From positions 1-54,311 of the forward strand of contig JANWVF010000110.1 of assembly GCA_025056965.1 (NCBI GenBank): DNA of 54,311 nucleotides, written 5' to 3'. Below, piece by piece: positions 9,189 to 30,739 of this stretch. Under the pieces are notes generated by a model. It worked only from the letters and a program-made list of their open reading frames with translations. It had not been told where the DNA came from and ran no database searches. Positions within the stretch are counted from its first letter, which is position 1, and each line of letters opens with the position of its first letter. A program made the position numbers and the translations under genes. This DNA comes from Thermoflexales bacterium (GTDB taxonomy: Bacteria > Chloroflexota > Anaerolineae > J036 > Brachytrichaceae).

Positions 9189-10514
9189 ATGTCACACACC
9201 GTAAACAAATTCTCAACCTTTCATCGTCTGCTAGCTACGACTCTATTGGCAGCGGCGCTGACTGCCTGCGCCGTGCCTGTGCCGACTGTCACGCCTGCAC
9301 AGCCGCAAGAGCCGACTCAAGCCGCACCTACGGCAACGCTGGAGGCTACTGCTACGCCTCAGCCGACCAGCACGCCTGCGCCGGCCGTCGAGGCTCCGAC
9401 TGCCAACATCACCGATGGCTGTGCCGAGACCTACAGCCCCGACGTTGACTACTTCCCGGAGAAGGTCACCGTCGAGGACGCCACCGGTTTCACGGTGGAG
9501 TACTTCAAGAACTACAAAGTCGTCACCGTGCTCAAGCCCTGGAGTGGGGCCGAGCAGCAGTTCAAGTACGTCATCGTGCAGTGCGGCACGCCTGCACCAA
9601 CCGACGTCGGTGACGCCTTGGTGATCCAGGCGCCGGTCAAGGACTTGATTGCGATGAGCACTACGCACTTACCACACTTGGAGAAACTGGACGTGCTCGA
9701 CCGCCTGCTGGGCCTGGACAGCTTCCTGTATGTGAACAACCCTAAGGTGCGCACGCTGATCGAGGCCGGCGCGCTGGTCGAGATCGGCGGTGGAGCCGAG
9801 GTCAACATCGAGAAAACCATCGCCGCCCAGCCCGATCTCGTGATGACCTACGGGGTGGGTGACCCACAATACGACGCTCATCCCAAGTTGCTGGAGGCCA
9901 AGATCCCCACTGTGCTGAACGCCGAGTACATGGAGGGCACACCTCTGGGCCGCGCCGAGTGGATCAAGTTCACCGCGCTGTTCTTCAACAAGGAGGCCAA
10001 GGCACAGGAGGAATATGCCGGCATGAAGCAGCGCTACCAAGCCGTGGCCGAAAAGGTCAAGGCTGCAACGACCAAGCCCACCGTCATCTCCGGCATGGCC
10101 AGCAAGGACAAGTGGCGCGTGCCGGGCGGCGGCAGCTATGCTGCGCGGCTCATCGCTGATGCCGGCGGCGCTTACCTCTTCGCCGATGACACCAGTGCCG
10201 GCAGCCTCTCGCTGACTTTCGAGGAGGTGTACGACAAAGCTGTCAAAGCGGAAGTATGGCTGTTGACCAGCTTCCAGCGCTACGACAGCATCAAGGCGAT
10301 CTTGGATGAAGAGCCGCGCTACGCCGAACTGGCCGCCGTGAAGAAAGGCAACGTCTGGAACTACGACAAGCGCATCAACGAGAACGGCGGCAATGACTAC
10401 TAGGAGACCGGCGTCGGCAATCCCGACATCCTACTGGCCGACCTGGCCAAGATTCTGCATCCCGAATTGATGGCTGGCCACGAGCTGGTCTTCTGGCGTC
10501 AAATTCCGACCTAG
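9189..10514 (+). pseudogene. btuF: Corrinoid ABC transporter substrate-binding lipoprotein, interrupted by an in-frame TAG
   Basis: A periplasmic-binding-protein-2 family protein (PF01497 type) for B12 or related metal chelates. It has a signal peptide with lipobox ALTAC near residue 26, a Thr/Pro-rich linker, and then a sequence closely matching btuF2 at 11535. The first stop is TAG at 10401-10403, giving 404 residues. In btuF2 the same codon is TGG inside GGNDYWETG. After the TAG the frame continues for 36 codons that still match the btuF2 tail (ETGVGNPDILLADLAKILHP) and ends at TAG 10512-10514. The gene is either a recently truncated copy, read through, or a sequencing error. No Shine-Dalgarno is visible before the ATG at 9189. 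Confidence 0.85.
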
Positions 10515-10630: not shown

Positions 10631-11470
10631 ATGAAGACTAACCTTCGCAGATCATTTGCCTTACTTGTGATCGCAAGCGCGATCGGTGCTGCCATGTCCA
10701 GCTATGCCCCGACAGTTTCAGCGCAGGGGCTCGGATACATTCGCGGCATCGCTTTTGCGGATGCCAATGGCAACGGCAAACGCGACATCGGCGAGCGGGC
10801 GCTCGACGTTGCCCGCTTTAAGATCACCAACGGCGGCAACTTCTGGCGCTGCGGCGCGGTGTTCGGCGAGACGCCGTTCCAAGTTCCCGTCCGCCCGGGC
10901 ACATACTTCGTGATGCCAATTGCCGGTCCCGGCGAGTATCCGACCGTGCCCGTGATCCGAGTGACCGTCGAGGCCGGTAAGTCTGCCGAGGCAGATTTGC
11001 CTTTTGGCTCGAACCCGCTGGCCGTCGCAGAGAACTGCGGCGCATATCAACCCAAGCGAACGGCGCGCGTGCCGATGGGCGTCGTCGAGAGCGCGAACGG
11101 CGCCGGGCTGACGACGTTGACGCGCCTGATTGATCAAGCCGGCCTATTTGAAACTCTGAGCGGTCGCGGGCCGTTCACCGTGTTCGCGCCGACCGACCTG
11201 GCATTCGCCCAGTTCACCGAGGAAGAGCTTGAGGCGTTGCGCGCGGATCGGTCGCGCCTGCGTGCAGTGCTTACCTATCACGTCGTCCCCGGCCTGTTCA
11301 AGGCCGATCAGGTTGCCAAAGCGCTGGGCTTAAGCACGGTCAACGGCAAGCTCTTGATCGTGCGAACCGAAGGCTCAGATGTCTTTGTGGGTGAGGCGCG
11401 CGTGATCAGGACGGATATCACCGCAGCCAACGGCGTGATTCACATCATTGATGGCGTGCTTATGCCCTAG
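10631..11470 (+). CDS. Exported fasciclin (FAS1) domain protein with N-terminal SdrD-like domain
   Basis: A 279-residue exported protein. A signal peptide covers about residues 1-31. Residues 33-130 look like an SdrD/collagen-binding B-type domain, with the Asp/Asn-rich loop DANGNGKRDIGE that often binds calcium. A FAS1 domain follows at about 150-279 with GPFTVFAPTDLAF, LTYHVVPG and the terminal VIHIIDGVLMP. FAS1 domains mediate adhesion or bind small ligands. Its position between two btuF copies and downstream of the cobalamin riboswitch suggests that it is B12-regulated. A role in surface corrinoid capture is only an inference. Confidence 0.85.
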   Translation: MKTNLRRSFALLVIASAIGAAMSSYAPTVSAQGLGYIRGIAFADANGNGKRDIGERALDVARFKITNGGNFWRCGAVFGETPFQVPVRPGTYFVMPIAGPGEYPTVPVIRVTVEAGKSAEADLPFGSNPLAVAENCGAYQPKRTARVPMGVVESANGAGLTTLTRLIDQAGLFETLSGRGPFTVFAPTDLAFAQFTEEELEALRADRSRLRAVLTYHVVPGLFKADQVAKALGLSTVNGKLLIVRTEGSDVFVGEARVIRTDITAANGVIHIIDGVLMP

Positions 11471-11534
11471 CACAGCACCTGTGCATCAACTCAGCAAACA
11501 GATCGTTCACGTTTGATTAGGGATGGAGAAAGCT

Positions 11535-12785
11535 ATGTCACACGCTTCCAAGAACCCACGACACGTTCGCATTCACACTTTGGCCCTGCTGCTCGCAGCA
11601 GCGCTTACCCTTAGCATTGCGCCTGCGCATGCCGGCGCAGTACCTCGACCTGCCCAAGCGGCAAATCTGGTCAACGGCTGCGTGCAAACCTACAGCCCTG
11701 CGGTGGACTACTTCCCGCAGAAGGTGAAGGTGGAGGATGCTACGGGGTTCACGGTGAAGTACTTCAGGAACTACAAGGAGGTCACCGTGCTCAACCCCTG
11801 GCGCGGCGCAAAGGAACAGTTCAAATACGTGCTCGTCCAATGCGGCACCCCGCAACCTCAGGGCATCCGAAACGCAATCGTGATCGAAGTGCCCGTTGGG
11901 CGTGTGATCGCGATGAGCACGACTCACTTGCCGCACCTCGACAAGCTCGGGCTGCTCGACCGTCTGATCGGCATGGATACCTTCAAGTATGTCAACAACC
12001 CCAAAGTTCGTGCGATGATCCAACGTGGCGGCATGGTCGAGATCGGCGACGGTCCACAAGTGAGCATTGAAAAGACCGTCGCAGCCGAGCCGGACATCGT
12101 GATGACCTTCGGCGTTGGTGATCCTAGGTCCGATGCACATCCCAAGTTGCTCGAGGCCGGCATTCCCACGGTGATCAATGCTGAGTACATGGAAGGCACA
12201 CCGCTTGGGCGCGCCGAATGGATCAAGTTCACCGCGCTGTTCTTCAACAAAGAGGCGGAGGCGCAGAGGGAATATGCCCAAATGAAGCGGCGCTATCTGT
12301 CCGTCGCAAACCGAGTGAAGAACGTCGCCAATCGGCCTGTGGTGCTGCAGGGCGTCGTCAGCCGAGACCGCTGGCGCGTGCCCGGCGGCGGCAGCTATGC
12401 TGCGCGTCTGATTGCCGATGCCGGCGGCAAATACCTCTGGTCGGACAACACCGAGGCCGGCAGCCTCTCGCTCACTTTTGAAGAAGTCTTCTTCCGCGCC
12501 ACGCAGGCCGACGTGTGGTTGCTCGCCAGCTTTCAGCGCTTCAACAGCATCAAGCAGCTCGTTGACACAGAACCGCGCTATAGCGGCGTAGGTGCTGTCA
12601 AGAAGGGGCAGGTGTGGAACTACGACAAGCGCTTAAATGAGAACGGCGGCAACGACTACTGGGAGACCGGCGTCGCCAACCCAGACCTCCTGCTCGCCGA
12701 TCTCGTCAAAATCCTGCACCCGAACGTTTTGCCCAATCACGAGCCGGTGTTCTGGCGACAGCTCACCGCTGAACCGACTCAATGA
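11535..12785 (+). CDS. btuF: Corrinoid ABC transporter substrate-binding protein (intact copy)
   Basis: A 416-residue PF01497-type binding protein that delivers corrinoid to BtuCD. A signal peptide ends near AHAGA, without the lipobox seen in btuF1. The mature protein has a small N-terminal region with two Cys (NGCVQTYSP and VLVQCGTPQ), then the binding lobes including MSTTHLPHLDKL and PGGGSYAARLIADAGG. I chose the ATG at 11535 because GGAG lies seven bases before it and because btuF1 also begins with MSH; an ATG at 11523 is possible. Its stop overlaps the btuC start by four bases (ATGA), so the two are translationally coupled. It is clearly a tandem duplicate of btuF1. Confidence 0.92.
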   Translation: MSHASKNPRHVRIHTLALLLAAALTLSIAPAHAGAVPRPAQAANLVNGCVQTYSPAVDYFPQKVKVEDATGFTVKYFRNYKEVTVLNPWRGAKEQFKYVLVQCGTPQPQGIRNAIVIEVPVGRVIAMSTTHLPHLDKLGLLDRLIGMDTFKYVNNPKVRAMIQRGGMVEIGDGPQVSIEKTVAAEPDIVMTFGVGDPRSDAHPKLLEAGIPTVINAEYMEGTPLGRAEWIKFTALFFNKEAEAQREYAQMKRRYLSVANRVKNVANRPVVLQGVVSRDRWRVPGGGSYAARLIADAGGKYLWSDNTEAGSLSLTFEEVFFRATQADVWLLASFQRFNSIKQLVDTEPRYSGVGAVKKGQVWNYDKRLNENGGNDYWETGVANPDLLLADLVKILHPNVLPNHEPVFWRQLTAEPTQ

Positions 12786-13879
12786 AGGTGCAACTTTCCT
12801 CGGCAGAGGCTGGCTGGACACGTGCTCCAGCCAGCCCATTCCCGCCGCTGCGCATGCGCCGCGGCATCCTGCTGCTGCTGATCGCGTTCACCGGCGCCGC
12901 ATTCATGCTGTCTTTGGCGATCGGCGCAGTCAGCATTCCGCTCGATGAGGTGCTGCGCGTGCTGCTCGGCGGGCAAGCCAGCAAAGACACTTGGCAGACG
13001 ATCGTCCTCACCTTTCGCCTGCCGAAGGCGATCACCGCGCTGTTGGCCGGCGCAGCCCTGAGCGCCGCCGGCCTTCAGATGCAGACGCTCTTCCGCAATC
13101 CGCTGGCCGATCCGTTCGTGCTCGGCATCAGCAGCGGTGCAAGCTTGGGCGTGGCGCTGGTCGTGCTCGGCGGCGCGGCCGTCAGCGCCAGCGTCTTCGG
13201 GCGCACGGCATTCCTGGGTGAACTCGGCTTGGTCGGCGCGGCTTCGCTCGGCGCGGCTGCCGTGTTTGCGCTGGTGCTCGCCATCGCCCGCCGCGTGCAG
13301 AGCGTGATCACGCTGCTGGTGCTCGGTTTGATGGTCGGCTACCTCGCCAGCGCCGTCGTCAGCGTGCTGATCTACTTCAGCCTTCCCGAACAGGTCAGCG
13401 CTTACATCAACTGGACGTTCGGCAGCTTTGGCGGGGTGACCTGGCAGCAGATGCGTGCCTTCGCGCCTGCGCTGCTGGTCGGCCTGGGGACGGCACTGCT
13501 CACGGTGAAACCGCTCAATGCGCTGCTGCTGGGCGAAAACTACGCCCGCAGCATGGGCGTCAACGTGCGCGTGGTGCGTTGGTGGGTGACGGCGAGCGCC
13601 TCGCTGCTGGCGGGCGCCGTGACGGCCTTCTGCGGCCCAATTGGGTTCATCGGGATCGCCGTGCCGCACTTGTGCCGAGCGCTGTTTGCCACCAGCGATC
13701 ATCGCGTGCTCATGCCTGCCTCGCTGCTGCTCGGCGGCGGCTTGGCGCTGATCTTCGATCTGATCAGCCAGATGCCCGGCACGCGTGCTGCCCTGCCGCT
13801 CAACGTAGTCACTTCGGCAGTCGGCGCCCCCGTCGTCTTGTGGATCGTGATGCGCCGGCAAAGTTTTGGGAGGATTTAA
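12782..13879 (+). CDS. btuC: Corrinoid ABC transporter permease (FecCD/BtuC family)
   Basis: A 365-residue inner-membrane permease with about ten hydrophobic helices, forming the B12 translocation channel with BtuD. Family segments include the PRLPKAITALLAGAALS-like start of the domain (here FRLPKAITALLAG), GLQMQTLFRNPLADPFVLG, GPIGFIGIAVPHLCRAL and a helix ending LPLNVVTSAVGAPV. The first 40 residues are polar, as in many BtuC proteins. It overlaps btuF2 by four bases and abuts btuD directly, which shows a single importer operon. Assignment to B12 rather than iron chelate rests on the riboswitch and neighbours. Confidence 0.93.
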   Translation: MKVQLSSAEAGWTRAPASPFPPLRMRRGILLLLIAFTGAAFMLSLAIGAVSIPLDEVLRVLLGGQASKDTWQTIVLTFRLPKAITALLAGAALSAAGLQMQTLFRNPLADPFVLGISSGASLGVALVVLGGAAVSASVFGRTAFLGELGLVGAASLGAAAVFALVLAIARRVQSVITLLVLGLMVGYLASAVVSVLIYFSLPEQVSAYINWTFGSFGGVTWQQMRAFAPALLVGLGTALLTVKPLNALLLGENYARSMGVNVRVVRWWVTASASLLAGAVTAFCGPIGFIGIAVPHLCRALFATSDHRVLMPASLLLGGGLALIFDLISQMPGTRAALPLNVVTSAVGAPVVLWIVMRRQSFGRI

Positions 13880-14836
13880 GTGGTGAACCGGTGGGAACAG
13901 GCAGGGTATGCGTTGGGCCAAATGCGCCGCGCATCGGAGCATTCCGAACCGGCGGAGCGTTCGCCGGACGCAACGGCGGCCATCTACGCGCGTGACCTGA
14001 CTACGGGGTATCGGCAAGGTACGCGCGTGCGGGTCGTGCATCGCGGGCTTGGGCTTGCTTTGCCGCGTGGAAAGCTCACTGCGCTGCTTGGCCCGAATGG
14101 AGCCGGCAAAAGCACGCTGATGCGTACGCTCTCTGGGCTCCAGCCGGCGCTGGCCGGCGCGGTGTGGGTGGACGGCGTGCCGTTGCGCACGCTCTCGCCC
14201 CAAGCCATCGCGCGCAAGCTCGCCGTCGTGCTCACCGACCGCGTAGATGTCGGCTACATGACGGCGTATGCCCTAGCCGCGCTCGGGCGTCATCCCTACA
14301 CTCGCTGGGATGGGTGGCTGACGCCTGAGGACGAGCAGATCGTCCAAGAGGCGATGCACGCGGCGGGCTGTGCGGGGCTTGCCGCGCGGATGGTCGCCGA
14401 ATTAAGCGACGGCGAGCGCCAGAGGGTGATGATCGCCCGCGCCTTAGCGCAGCAAACGCCGATCATCTTTCTCGATGAACCTACGGCTTTTCTTGACCTG
14501 CCGCGCCGCATCGAGATGATGCATCTGCTGGCCGACCTAGCTCATCGCACCGGCCGCGCCCTGTTGCTCAGCACACACGACCTCGAACTAGCTCTCCGCT
14601 TTGCCGATGGCCTGTGGCTAATGGGCGGCGATGGCACGTTCGTCACAGGCACGCCGATGGAGCTGTTGCAGCGCGGCGAATTGCTGCGCGTCTTCTCCGG
14701 CGAGGGTCGCGAAGTACGGCGCTACCTACAGGACCTGCATCAGCGCTGGCAAGCAAAGGATTTGTCGGCAGATTGGCTTAAGGCCGAAACGCAAGGATCG
14801 CACGATAAACATCCTGTTTCACAGATAGGTGGCTGA
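13880..14836 (+). CDS. btuD: Corrinoid ABC transporter ATP-binding protein
   Basis: A 318-residue ABC ATPase that energises BtuC. Walker A GPNGAGKST is at residues 71-79, the signature LSDGERQ at 175-181, Walker B PIIFLDEP at 194-201, and the switch His in LSTHDLEL. The start is GTG 13880 or 13883, directly after the btuC stop, with GGGAGG at 13866-13871. About 38 residues precede the ABC domain, longer than usual, so a later start cannot be excluded. The catalytic residues are all intact, unlike the next gene. Confidence 0.92.
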   Translation: MVNRWEQAGYALGQMRRASEHSEPAERSPDATAAIYARDLTTGYRQGTRVRVVHRGLGLALPRGKLTALLGPNGAGKSTLMRTLSGLQPALAGAVWVDGVPLRTLSPQAIARKLAVVLTDRVDVGYMTAYALAALGRHPYTRWDGWLTPEDEQIVQEAMHAAGCAGLAARMVAELSDGERQRVMIARALAQQTPIIFLDEPTAFLDLPRRIEMMHLLADLAHRTGRALLLSTHDLELALRFADGLWLMGGDGTFVTGTPMELLQRGELLRVFSGEGREVRRYLQDLHQRWQAKDLSADWLKAETQGSHDKHPVSQIGG

Positions 14837-14884
14837 GTGTGATCCAAGGGAATCGAGCAAGATCCGGGAGGGGAGGTCTCCGCC

Positions 14885-15667
14885 ATGAAAAGGATTGCGC
14901 CGATTGGTTTGGAAATGCGCGATGTGGCGTATGCCTACCCCGGACAATCGGGTTGGGCCATCAACCACATCAATCTTAAGTTCGACGGCGGTCACAAAGT
15001 CGCCGTCGTAGGACGCAACGGGAGTGGCAAGTCCACTTTGCTCATGGTCGCCGCTGGTTTGCTGCGTCCGACGCATGGCCAGATATTCATCAACGGTCAG
15101 CCGGTCACGTTTGACCTGCAAGGTACGTTGGCCTTGCGTCGGCTGGTGGCAACGGTGCTAGTCGGCTGTGATGACCAGATCATGGACGCCCACTCCAACA
15201 TGCGCGGCGTCACGCTGGACCTCTGGGATAGCACAGCGGCTCATACGCGACTGCGCGATGCAACCCTTGGTCAGCGCGTCGAGCAGGTGAATGAACTGCG
15301 CCGCATGATCAACGCCCTGTTGCGCCCGCGCCACGCGCTCAGCCTAGGTGAACAAGCGATCGCCGCGATGCAGAGCGCGCTGCGGCTTGAGGCCGCGATC
15401 TTGATCCTCGATCATGCCTTCGACGTCCTCGACCGATTCGAGCGCAATGAGTTGTTGCACCAGTTGGATGCCTTCGCAAACTGTGGAGGCCTCGTCTTGC
15501 TTTCCACACATGACATTGCAGCCGTGTGCGACTGGGCGAGCATGCTCTTGGTGATGGCGGGGCACGAAGTGGCGATGATGGCTCCACCGAATTGCATCCT
15601 CGCAGATTCGTTCTTGCGCCGCGTTGTCTTTGGGAAGGATCCTTCAGAACGTTGGGAGTTACACTGA
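14885..15667 (+). CDS. Degenerate CbiO-like ABC ATPase
   Basis: A 260-residue ABC-type ATPase closest in layout to CbiO/EcfA. Walker A GRNGSGKST is intact at 43-51 and the switch His in LLSTHD is at 209. Other sites are eroded. The Q-loop FQNPDD of CbiO becomes VGCDDQ near 93-98. The signature is LSLGEQ at 152-157. The Walker B block reads ILILDH, so the catalytic Glu is replaced by His177. Such a protein should bind ATP but hydrolyse poorly. It may pair with BtuD or CbiO, or be a regulatory ATPase. It starts at ATG 14885 and lies between btuD and cobB in the same transcript. Confidence 0.85.
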   Translation: MKRIAPIGLEMRDVAYAYPGQSGWAINHINLKFDGGHKVAVVGRNGSGKSTLLMVAAGLLRPTHGQIFINGQPVTFDLQGTLALRRLVATVLVGCDDQIMDAHSNMRGVTLDLWDSTAAHTRLRDATLGQRVEQVNELRRMINALLRPRHALSLGEQAIAAMQSALRLEAAILILDHAFDVLDRFERNELLHQLDAFANCGGLVLLSTHDIAAVCDWASMLLVMAGHEVAMMAPPNCILADSFLRRVVFGKDPSERWELH

Positions 15668-15668
15668 G

Positions 15669-17097
<1,429 letters not shown>

Positions 17098-17111
<14 letters not shown>

Positions 17112-22818: not shown

Positions 22819-23571
22819 GTGAAGTCACGCGTTGTTTCTCTCAAACTCGGTGCAGCGCTTCTGCTTCTGTTGGCTGCACAGCCGGCGATGGCCAGGTCGC
22901 CGGAGATGCACATCATGGAGGGCTTTCTGCCTCCTGAATGGGCGATTCTCTGGTTGGCCGTCGCCGTTCCGTTCTGGGTCGTCGGCTTCTTACAGATTCA
23001 GCGCATGGTGCGGGAGAAGCCGGAGAGCCGCCTAATGCTGGGGCTGGCTGCGGCGTTCGCATTTGTGCTCAGCGCGCTTAAGCTGCCTAGCGTCACCGGC
23101 TCATGCAGCCATCCCACGGGCACGGGACTAGGCGCTATCTTGTTCGGACCCTTCGTGATGTCCATCCTGGGCACGATCGTGCTACTCTTTCAAGCACTGT
23201 TGGTAGCGCATGGTGGCCTGACCACGCTGGGCGCGAATGCCGTCAGCATGGCCATCTTCGGCCCGCTGGTGGCCTGGATCATCTGGAAGGGGCTGCGCGG
23301 TCGCTTGGCCGAGGGATGGGTGGTCTTCTTGGCCGCTGCGCTGGCTAACTTGGCGACCTACGTGCTCACCTCGGCACAACTCGCCGTTGCCCATCCCGAT
23401 CCGGTGGGCGGCATCGCGGCCTCCTTCGCCAAATTCGGCGCCATCTTCGCCGTCACTCAGGTGCCGTTGGCGATCAGCGAAGGCATTCTGACCGTACTGA
23501 TCTTCAGGGCGCTGCGCCAAAATGCTGCCGCCGAGCTGCAAGCGCTGGGCGTGCAAAGGGCACAATCATGA
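22819..23571 (+). CDS. cbiM: Energy-coupling-factor cobalt transporter, substrate-specific component CbiM
   Basis: A 250-residue membrane protein that binds cobalt for the CbiMNQO importer. AAAGGAGG lies just upstream of the GTG start. A signal peptide runs to AMA at 23-25, and the metal-site motif MHIMEGFLP begins at Met30. The conserved [13 protein letters not shown]-like segment (here [14 protein letters not shown]) carries a ligand His. In characterised CbiM and NikM the mature N-terminus is the Met-His of this motif. Here four residues (RSPE) separate it from the predicted cleavage site. The gene opens the cbiMNQO cluster after a 72-base gap. Confidence 0.95.
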
Positions 23572-23873
23572 AAGGCTCAAATCTGATCCTCATCGCGCTC
23601 GTCATCCTGCTGACCGTCTTTCCGCTCGTCGTAGTACGGGACGCTGAGTTCCCCGGCGCCGATGCCCAAGCCGAAGATGCGATTACCGAGATCCGGCCTG
23701 ACTACAAGCCCTGGTTCAGCCCGATCTTTGAACCGCCTAGCGGCGAGATCGAGAGCCTCCTGTTCGCTGCGCAGGCCGCCCTCGGCGCAAGCGTCCTGGC
23801 CTATTTCTTCGGCTACAAGCATGGGCTGAGGAAAGGGAAGCAGGAGAAGCAGCGAGTAGATGCGTCAGATTGA
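23568..23873 (+). CDS. cbiN: Cobalt transporter accessory protein CbiN
   Basis: A 101-residue protein with two membrane helices (about 5-23 and 66-84) and a short extracytoplasmic loop, which fits CbiN. CbiN assists metal loading of CbiM. The ATG overlaps the cbiM stop by four bases (ATGA). The loop contains [15 protein letters not shown] and the second helix starts after [15 protein letters not shown], both family-like. Its C-terminal basic tail overlaps the cbiQ start. Confidence 0.93.
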
Positions 23874-24564
23874 CTCGTATGCGCACAGCAACAAGCTGAG
23901 CAGGTTGCATCCTGCCTATAAGGCCGGGTGCAGTTTGCTGGCGTTGACTTTGTGCCTTGCGCTCGACCATCCGACGGTGAGCCTGCTCATCACAGCGCTG
24001 ATGCTCGCGTTGACCGTCGGCTGGGCCGGTTTGCCGTGGCGATTCGTGCTTAGGTTGCTCGGGGCGGAGGGCGGCTTCTTGCTGACCGGGGTGCTGGGGA
24101 TCGCGATCAGCGTGCGCCTGTCATTCGACCAAGCCGGTGGCCTAGGGCCGGTGCAGATAGGCGTCACTGCCGAGTCGGTGCAGCAGGCACTGCACGTGTT
24201 TCTACGCGCTCTGGGCGGCGCTGCCGCGCTGAACTTCTTGGCGCTGACGACGCCGGCGGCAGACTTGCTGGAGCTTTTGCGATCTCTGCGCGCGCCGGCC
24301 ACGCTGATCGAAATCATGGGGCTGACCTATCGCTTTATCTTTGCCCTATTCGACAGCCTGGAGCGGATGACGATGGCACAGGAGGTTCGCCTGGGTTTTG
24401 CCGACTGGCGCAACAGCCTGCGCAGCGCCGCGTTGATCGGAACGAACCTGTTCGTCGAAGCCTTTCGTCGCAGTCGCGCGCTGGAGACGGCGTTGCAAGC
24501 CCGTGCCTGGACGGGCAGCTTGCGCGTCTTGCCGCGCGAGTATGAACATCTCTTTCGACGATGA
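23860..24564 (+). CDS. cbiQ: Energy-coupling-factor transporter transmembrane protein CbiQ
   Basis: A 234-residue membrane protein that couples the ATPase CbiO to CbiM. Several hydrophobic helices are followed by the coupling-helix motifs, including a segment near AQEVRLGFADW and the second one in RSRALETALQARAWTG. The start overlaps cbiN by 14 bases and the stop overlaps cbiO by four, so the cluster is translationally coupled. Confidence 0.93.
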   Translation: MRQIDSYAHSNKLSRLHPAYKAGCSLLALTLCLALDHPTVSLLITALMLALTVGWAGLPWRFVLRLLGAEGGFLLTGVLGIAISVRLSFDQAGGLGPVQIGVTAESVQQALHVFLRALGGAAALNFLALTTPAADLLELLRSLRAPATLIEIMGLTYRFIFALFDSLERMTMAQEVRLGFADWRNSLRSAALIGTNLFVEAFRRSRALETALQARAWTGSLRVLPREYEHLFRR

Positions 24565-25265
24565 CGCTGACGTTCAGGAACGTGCACGTGACCTATCCCG
24601 GCTCGGACAGGCTCGCCCTGCGCGGCGTCAGCGCAGAGATTGCCGCCGGTCAGCGCGTGGCGCTGGTAGGACGCAACGGCAGCGGCAAGTCCACGCTGAT
24701 GCTGGTGGCGAACGGCATCTTACGGCCGCAGCAGGGCGAGCTGTTGTTGGATGGTCGGTCTGTCCGCTATGACCGCCGCAGCCTTGCCGAGTTACGGCGT
24801 CAGGTGGGTGTGGTGTTCCAAAATCCCGACGACCAACTCTTTAGTGCCAGTGTCTATCAGGACATCAGCCTAGGGCCGCTTAACCTCGGGCTGAGTCAAG
24901 CCGAGGCCCGGGCGCGCGTTCTGCAGGCTGCCGAGCTGTGTGGCCTCGGCGAGTTGTTGGAACGCCCCACGCACGCGCTAAGCGGAGGCGAAAAGGTGCG
25001 CGTCGCCTTAGCGGGCGTGCTGGCCATGTCCCCGCGCTTTCTATTCGCCGACGAGCTGATCAACGGCCTTGATCCTTGGATGCGCCGACAGGTGCTGCAC
25101 ATCTTAGAGCGCCTATCTGCATCCGGCTGTGCCGTCATCCTAGCCACCCACGATTGGGGCTTGGCGCGCGAATGGGCGGACTACGCCATTTGGATGGATG
25201 CGGGTCGCGTCTTTCGCCAGGGCAAGCCGCAGACGGTGCTCAGCGGACCGGAGTGCCCCGATTAA
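24561..25265 (+). CDS. cbiO: Cobalt transporter ATP-binding protein CbiO
   Basis: A 234-residue ABC ATPase driving cobalt import. Walker A GRNGSGKST is at 37-45, the Q-loop VVFQNPDDQLFSASV is typical of ECF ATPases, the signature is LSGGEKVRVALA, and the switch His lies in LATHDWGL. Walker B reads FLFADEL, keeping the catalytic Glu but lacking the usual Pro after it. It is intact by comparison with the degenerate paralogue at 14885. It is shorter than many CbiO proteins because the C-terminal extension is missing. Confidence 0.94.
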   Translation: MTLTFRNVHVTYPGSDRLALRGVSAEIAAGQRVALVGRNGSGKSTLMLVANGILRPQQGELLLDGRSVRYDRRSLAELRRQVGVVFQNPDDQLFSASVYQDISLGPLNLGLSQAEARARVLQAAELCGLGELLERPTHALSGGEKVRVALAGVLAMSPRFLFADELINGLDPWMRRQVLHILERLSASGCAVILATHDWGLAREWADYAIWMDAGRVFRQGKPQTVLSGPECPD

Positions 25266-29266: not shown

Positions 29267-30457
<1,191 letters not shown>

Positions 30458-30551
30458 GAAGCTGTTCACGTTGTGCTCTCTCTCGCTTGCTTTTATGCTC
30501 CAGGCGGTTTGTGATTCATCTGCACTCAATCGGTCATCTGCGTAAAAACAT

Positions 30552-30607: not shown

Positions 30608-30739
30608 CTCTCATCTTCCAGTTATCCTGCCGGAATTGGCACCGTTTCGCATCCGGATTCCGGTTCTACCCGCGAATCTAGGATCGCGAAGGTTGCCGAG
30701 GCTTCGTCGGGCCGGTCCCTCCGCCTCTCTGGATAAGAG
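30608..30739 (-). ncRNA. SAM-I (S-box) riboswitch aptamer upstream of metK
   Basis: Read on the minus strand, P1 pairs CTCTTATC (30739-30732) with GATGAGAG (30615-30608). Between them lie the conserved CAGAGAGGCGGAGGGACCGG and CCCGACGAAGCCTCGGCAACC-like core (GACGAAGCC then CGGCAACC), and GGTGCCAATTCCGGC before the last helix. These are hallmark S-box elements. With the terminator downstream, SAM binding should stop transcription of metK and probably bioY. Confidence 0.97.

Follow-up and report, generated by a model that had tools for sequence, protein, structure and literature searches.

A CbiO-derived ABC protein without the catalytic glutamate and the ECF contact segment in a riboswitch-headed corrinoid gene cluster

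The stretch of DNA analysed here (the window; 54,311 nucleotides) belongs to a Chloroflexota genome whose genus includes Candidatus Roseilinea, and holds a corrinoid gene cluster in which an ATPase gene, here called X, lies between btuD and cobB (Table 1). Because the + strand gene order is unbroken, the cobalamin riboswitch at the head of the cluster probably controls the gene run holding X. The open reading frame of X starts with ATG and is uninterrupted, giving a product of 260 aa; its ribosome-binding sites are good, cobB follows closely, and probable translational coupling of the two genes follows from the start codon of cobB lying one base after the stop of X. A single weak promoter-like match, within btuD, is all that was found by way of a separate promoter for X, and no unusual fold was seen that would represent an RNA structure or terminator specific to it. 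Elsewhere in the window, btuF1 (9189-10403) has an in-frame stop where btuF2 runs about 40 residues further, with the frame continuing in the same phase beyond; btuF2 (11523-12785) is intact, and a gene for a fasciclin-domain protein (10631-11470) stands between the two.

Table 1. Positions of X, its motifs and the surrounding corrinoid and cobalt genes in the window.
Feature	Position	Strand	Remarks
Cobalamin riboswitch RF00174	8857..8999	+	Rfam 44.8 bits, gathering score 31.5; heads the cluster
btuC, FecCD-type permease	12782..13879	+	Pfam FecCD 258 bits; NCBIfam BtuC models are top matches
btuD, corrinoid importer ATPase	13880..14836	+	Canonical catalytic motifs; ends 48 bases upstream of X
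X	14885..15667	+	CbiO-derived ABC ATPase without catalytic Glu, Q-loop Gln and ECF T-contact segment
Walker A of X	15011..15037	+	Residues 43-51, GRNGSGKST; intact; orthologue identical there
Rewritten Q-loop/Q-helix segment of X	15158..15259	+	Residues 92-125
Signature LSLGEQ of X	15338..15355	+	Residues 152-157; Ser and second Gly retained; ECF signature Arg at 159 gone
Walker B ILILDH of X	15398..15415	+	Residues 172-177; catalytic Glu replaced by His177
cobB/cbiA, cobyrinate a,c-diamide synthase	15669..17111	+	Pfam CbiA and GATase_3; TTG start
cbiM, cbiN, cbiQ, cbiO	22819..25265	+	Cobalt ECF transporter of the ordinary kind; flanked by cobN and cobD

The motif columns of X were judged against an alignment of 106 other ABC ATPases. 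The A-loop tyrosine (Y18), the Walker A motif, the Walker B aspartate (D176), the D-loop aspartate (D183) and the H-loop histidine (H209) are all retained, and the ATP-sandwich residues Ser153, Gly155 and Asp183 are present. The position of the Walker B glutamate is held by H177 (in the other 106 proteins: Glu 103, Gln two, Asp one and His none) and that of the Q-loop glutamine by V93 (Gln 94, Thr nine, Glu two, Cys one, Val or Met in none). The first-pass annotation, made from the sequence by itself, was therefore right that Walker A and the switch histidine are intact, that His stands in place of the Walker B glutamate and that the Q-loop is altered. It overstated the case in counting the signature among the altered motifs: the first glycine is missing in 42 of the 106 proteins (LSFGQ, LSDGE and similar), so that LSLGEQ is unremarkable and at most a mild change. 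Its description of btuD next to X (LSDGE/FLDEPT) and of cbiO farther downstream (LSGGE/FADE) as intact holds, since both have canonical catalytic residues.

The ancestry proposed for this reading frame is supported by profile match and tree. The top NCBIfam match of X is TIGR01166 (cbiO) at 110.8 bits, which lies under the model cut-off of 211.8. In a tree of 108 rows, X and its orthologue are nested in the clade of CbiMNQO-type CbiO proteins (33 rows; support 99/98), and the BtuD rows form a separate clade with which X does not group. The predicted fold is nearest to the CbiO structure 5X40 (Z 25.2, rmsd 3.7, 232 residues aligned). Descent from CbiO is thus established as far as sequence comparison can do so, making X a diverged paralogue. 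The stem of the X pair is long, at 1.6 changes per column, where its two tips measure 0.32 and 0.08, as though a burst of change had given way to constraint. Of 77 CbiO-conserved columns, the two X orthologues both retain the usual residue in 40, share one and the same new residue in 27 (including E177H, P95C and S103H) and differ in 10.

Change has also reached the part of the protein that would hold the membrane. In ECF ATPases the stretch contacting the membrane T subunit is the Q-loop/Q-helix region, and the key residues are the Q-helix motif X-P-D/E-X-Q-hydrophobic, an acid of the first helix that makes contact by gripping an Arg of the T subunit, and an Arg in the signature (PMC6828968). 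In X this segment carries an insertion of about 12 residues, Q93 has become V and P95 has become C, and the region of the T-contact Asp is gone; the Q-helix motif reads C-D-D-Q-I, with the Pro lost and the Asp and Gln kept. The Q-loop Gln, the contact Asp and the catalytic Glu are each present in 31/31 CbiO proteins, whereas the two X orthologues have Val/Met at the first position and His177 at the third, and the contact Asp is missing in X, with the reservation that the alignment is uncertain over residues 104-122 and D101 might replace the lost acid. The position of the ECF signature Arg holds Ile and Lys in the X pair.

The same segment also differs in how it has been conserved. Across 378 CbiO pairs it is the most conserved part of the protein, averaging 84% identity against 63% overall, whereas between X and its orthologue residues 92-125 are the least conserved part (39% against 68%). 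Segment identity minus overall identity is -28.8 for the X pair and ranges from +3.7 to +41.2 for the CbiO pairs. In the AlphaFold2 model of X, residues 96-124 and 126-129 have pLDDT <50 and are modelled as coil, whereas from the same five-row alignment the CbiO of the window builds the helices of the segment with no stretch at pLDDT <50; with so shallow an alignment this is a soft test, and it agrees with the sequence result. Judged from the alignments, X has lost the T-contact segment and fails the ECF T-contact features. Because X falls short of what characterises a functional ECF A subunit, it should not be called CbiO, and CbiO-derived pseudo-ATPase is the proper name.

The distribution of X is narrow. 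A peptide-pattern search of 84,980 species genomes returned a sole orthologue, 67% identical, in Candidatus Roseilinea sp. SKYG71 (JANWYN01). No third member was found by profile search of 400 genomes of the phylum, 396 of the class and all 28 of the order/family, where the next best matches inspected were CbiO proteins, mostly beside cbiMNQ, and none was found in IMG/VR viral contigs. X is present in two of the 28 order/family genomes and missing from the other 26, including its seven remaining congeneric species, five of which have the btuD-cobB pair without it; it is thus dispensable and could be a marginal gene. Across the window (14836-15669) and its relatives, the btuD-cobB slot holds nothing (two genomes of a sister genus), DUF7676, a broken DUF7676 or a 2Fe-2S ferredoxin-like gene (five other congeneric species), X, or a ferredoxin-like gene, DUF7676 and X together.

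In SKYG71 the gene keeps its surroundings: cobB follows it directly, and btuD precedes it at a distance of two intervening genes, in line with the linkage to these genes that the first-pass annotation had proposed to check. The orthologue retains LSLGEQ and the DH pair, with Met at the Q-loop Gln position. The His in place of the catalytic Glu is thus kept, VDH being conserved where a normal LDE would have pointed the other way. Comparison of the two genes gives a dN of 0.23, a dS of 1.70 and a dN/dS of about 0.14, a rough value with dS near saturation, and reveals no stops; identity rises to 82-86% in the N-terminal Walker A part. The substitution pattern, though drawn from two sequences, indicates that X is under purifying selection and is not decaying.

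The relation of X to cobalt transport can be followed in the two genomes that carry it. Among the family junctions seen, the arrangement cobN-cbiMNQO-cobD is found only in the window, 7-10 kb downstream of X, and in a genome of a different genus (G022); in a further genome (G003) cobN directly adjoins cobD. In SKYG71 the cobN-cobD junction is intact and holds a phosphatase-like gene instead of cbiMNQO, and CbiM was not found in that metagenome-assembled, approximately 91% complete assembly; cbiMNQO could sit on a missing contig, yet the syntenic site is empty. X is therefore selected in an assembly in which no cobalt ECF transporter was found. An orphan ECF T subunit served by X was also considered and rejected, since every CbiQ-family protein in both genomes adjoins its own ATPases: SKYG71 has two, each beside its own, and the CbiM/CbiQ of the window genome come with their own CbiO.

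The first-pass annotation had suggested either an asymmetric ATPase dimer or a regulator. A regulatory role is possible; the asymmetric dimer for cobalt import is disfavoured by the comparison. As a non-catalytic second ATPase of the cobalt ECF transporter, X would pair with CbiO on CbiQ, giving one live and one dead site. This has in its favour the CbiO ancestry of X, its retained ATP-binding motifs, the cbiMNQO genes farther along the window and the precedent of ABC exporters, in which degenerate sites with residues other than Glu are well known (PMC7756269). It is nevertheless improbable, because the SKYG71 assembly has neither a CbiM match nor cbiMNQO at the syntenic place and because the segment that would contact the T subunit has been rewritten; X also lies between btuD and cobB, outside cbiMNQO. 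A partnership closer at hand would tie X to the BtuCD corrinoid importer as a subunit or as a brake: pairing with BtuD, it would reduce or gate that protein's ATPase activity. X adjoins btuD in the window and is two genes away from it in SKYG71, the two genes share one riboswitch-headed cluster, and the ATP-sandwich residues that such a pairing would use are in place. We regard this as unlikely: X is of CbiO and not BtuD type, its permease-contacting segment is rewritten, and the seven sister species do without it, five of them with the btuD-cobB pair. Moreover, BtuD has full catalytic motifs, and the known B12 importer runs on a BtuD homodimer.

A third explanation sees in X a slowly decaying or inconsequential leftover of a duplicated cbiO, as its presence in only two of the 28 genomes of the order, the number of motifs gone and the variable content of the slot among relatives might suggest. 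The low dN/dS and the absence of stops argue against decay, as do the better conservation of the Walker A part than of the whole, the same derived residues fixed in both orthologues, the good ribosome-binding sites and the tight spacing to cobB; together these leave the explanation little probability.

The reading preferred here, to which we would give about an even chance, is that X is a selected ATP-binding CbiO paralogue, poor in hydrolysis and undocked from the ECF membrane components, that forms an ATP-dependent dimer and serves as a nucleotide-responsive partner or regulator in the corrinoid operon. Within it, ATP binding, dimerisation, the partner and any regulatory effect are all inferred. 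X keeps the parts of the ATP sandwich while the residues for splitting ATP and for holding the ECF membrane subunit are gone, and the most economical interpretation of that combination is a soluble or peripheral ATP-binding protein. Such a protein would bind ATP but hydrolyse it poorly, would be uncoupled from the membrane, and could dimerise in an ATP-dependent manner, either as a homodimer or together with BtuD as non-coupling partner. For a heterodimer with one degenerate site, the ATPases that might supply the competent half are BtuD, in both genomes, and CbiO, in one. ATP would then change the shape or the partner of X, which would act inside the riboswitch-headed operon, where the nearest candidate targets may be CobB, probably translationally coupled to it, and BtuCD or BtuD upstream. 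A more specific version is doubtful: that X is a soluble, non-hydrolysing ATP-binding controller of corrinoid synthesis or uptake in which His177, the active-site His209 and perhaps Cys95/His103 provide a new response to a ligand or metal, for example by gating CobB or braking BtuCD.

Among known systems X is nearest by tree, profile and fold to the CbiO of group I CbiMNQO transporters (5X40, 5X3X), with which it shares Walker A, D-loop and H-loop. Unlike that CbiO, it lacks the catalytic Glu, the Q-loop Gln, the Q-helix Pro, the T-contact Asp and the signature Arg, carries the insertion of about 12 residues and sits outside any cbiMNQO operon. It resembles ABCI11 of plants and cyanobacteria in being a CbiO-domain ATPase without the ECF-specific contact motif; ABCI11 lacks a full Q-helix and is not believed to work with an ECF T subunit (PMC6828968). 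The losses differ, however: in ABCI11 the Q-helix Gln is lost and the nucleotide motifs are described as complete (PMC6828968), whereas X keeps that Gln and has lost the Pro, the T-contact region and the catalytic Glu. The degenerate sites of heterodimeric ABC exporters likewise replace the catalytic Glu while the ATP-binding motifs stay, but in the part of the source available the substitutes are Asp, Ser, Met and Asn, where X has His, and the sites belong to transporter domains with a known partner (PMC7756269). For an ABC ATPase that has no membrane domain and works on a metabolic enzyme complex from its own operon, PhnK and PhnL of the C-P lyase provide a precedent; unlike X as proposed here they require ATP hydrolysis, and the common ground is the ABC fold (PMC9947105).

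No paper discussing a degenerate CbiO was found in the literature. If the preferred reading of X as an ATP-binding partner or regulator is true, a transporter motor has been recruited as a regulator in a cofactor pathway, keeping the ATP switch and dropping hydrolysis and the grip on the membrane, and His would join the substitutes for the catalytic Glu in ABC proteins that are under selection and not decaying. The general weight of the case is limited by its distribution in two species of one genus. On the other strand of the window, a SAM riboswitch (30608-30739, -; 87 bits) lies upstream of a metK-like gene (29267-30529, -).
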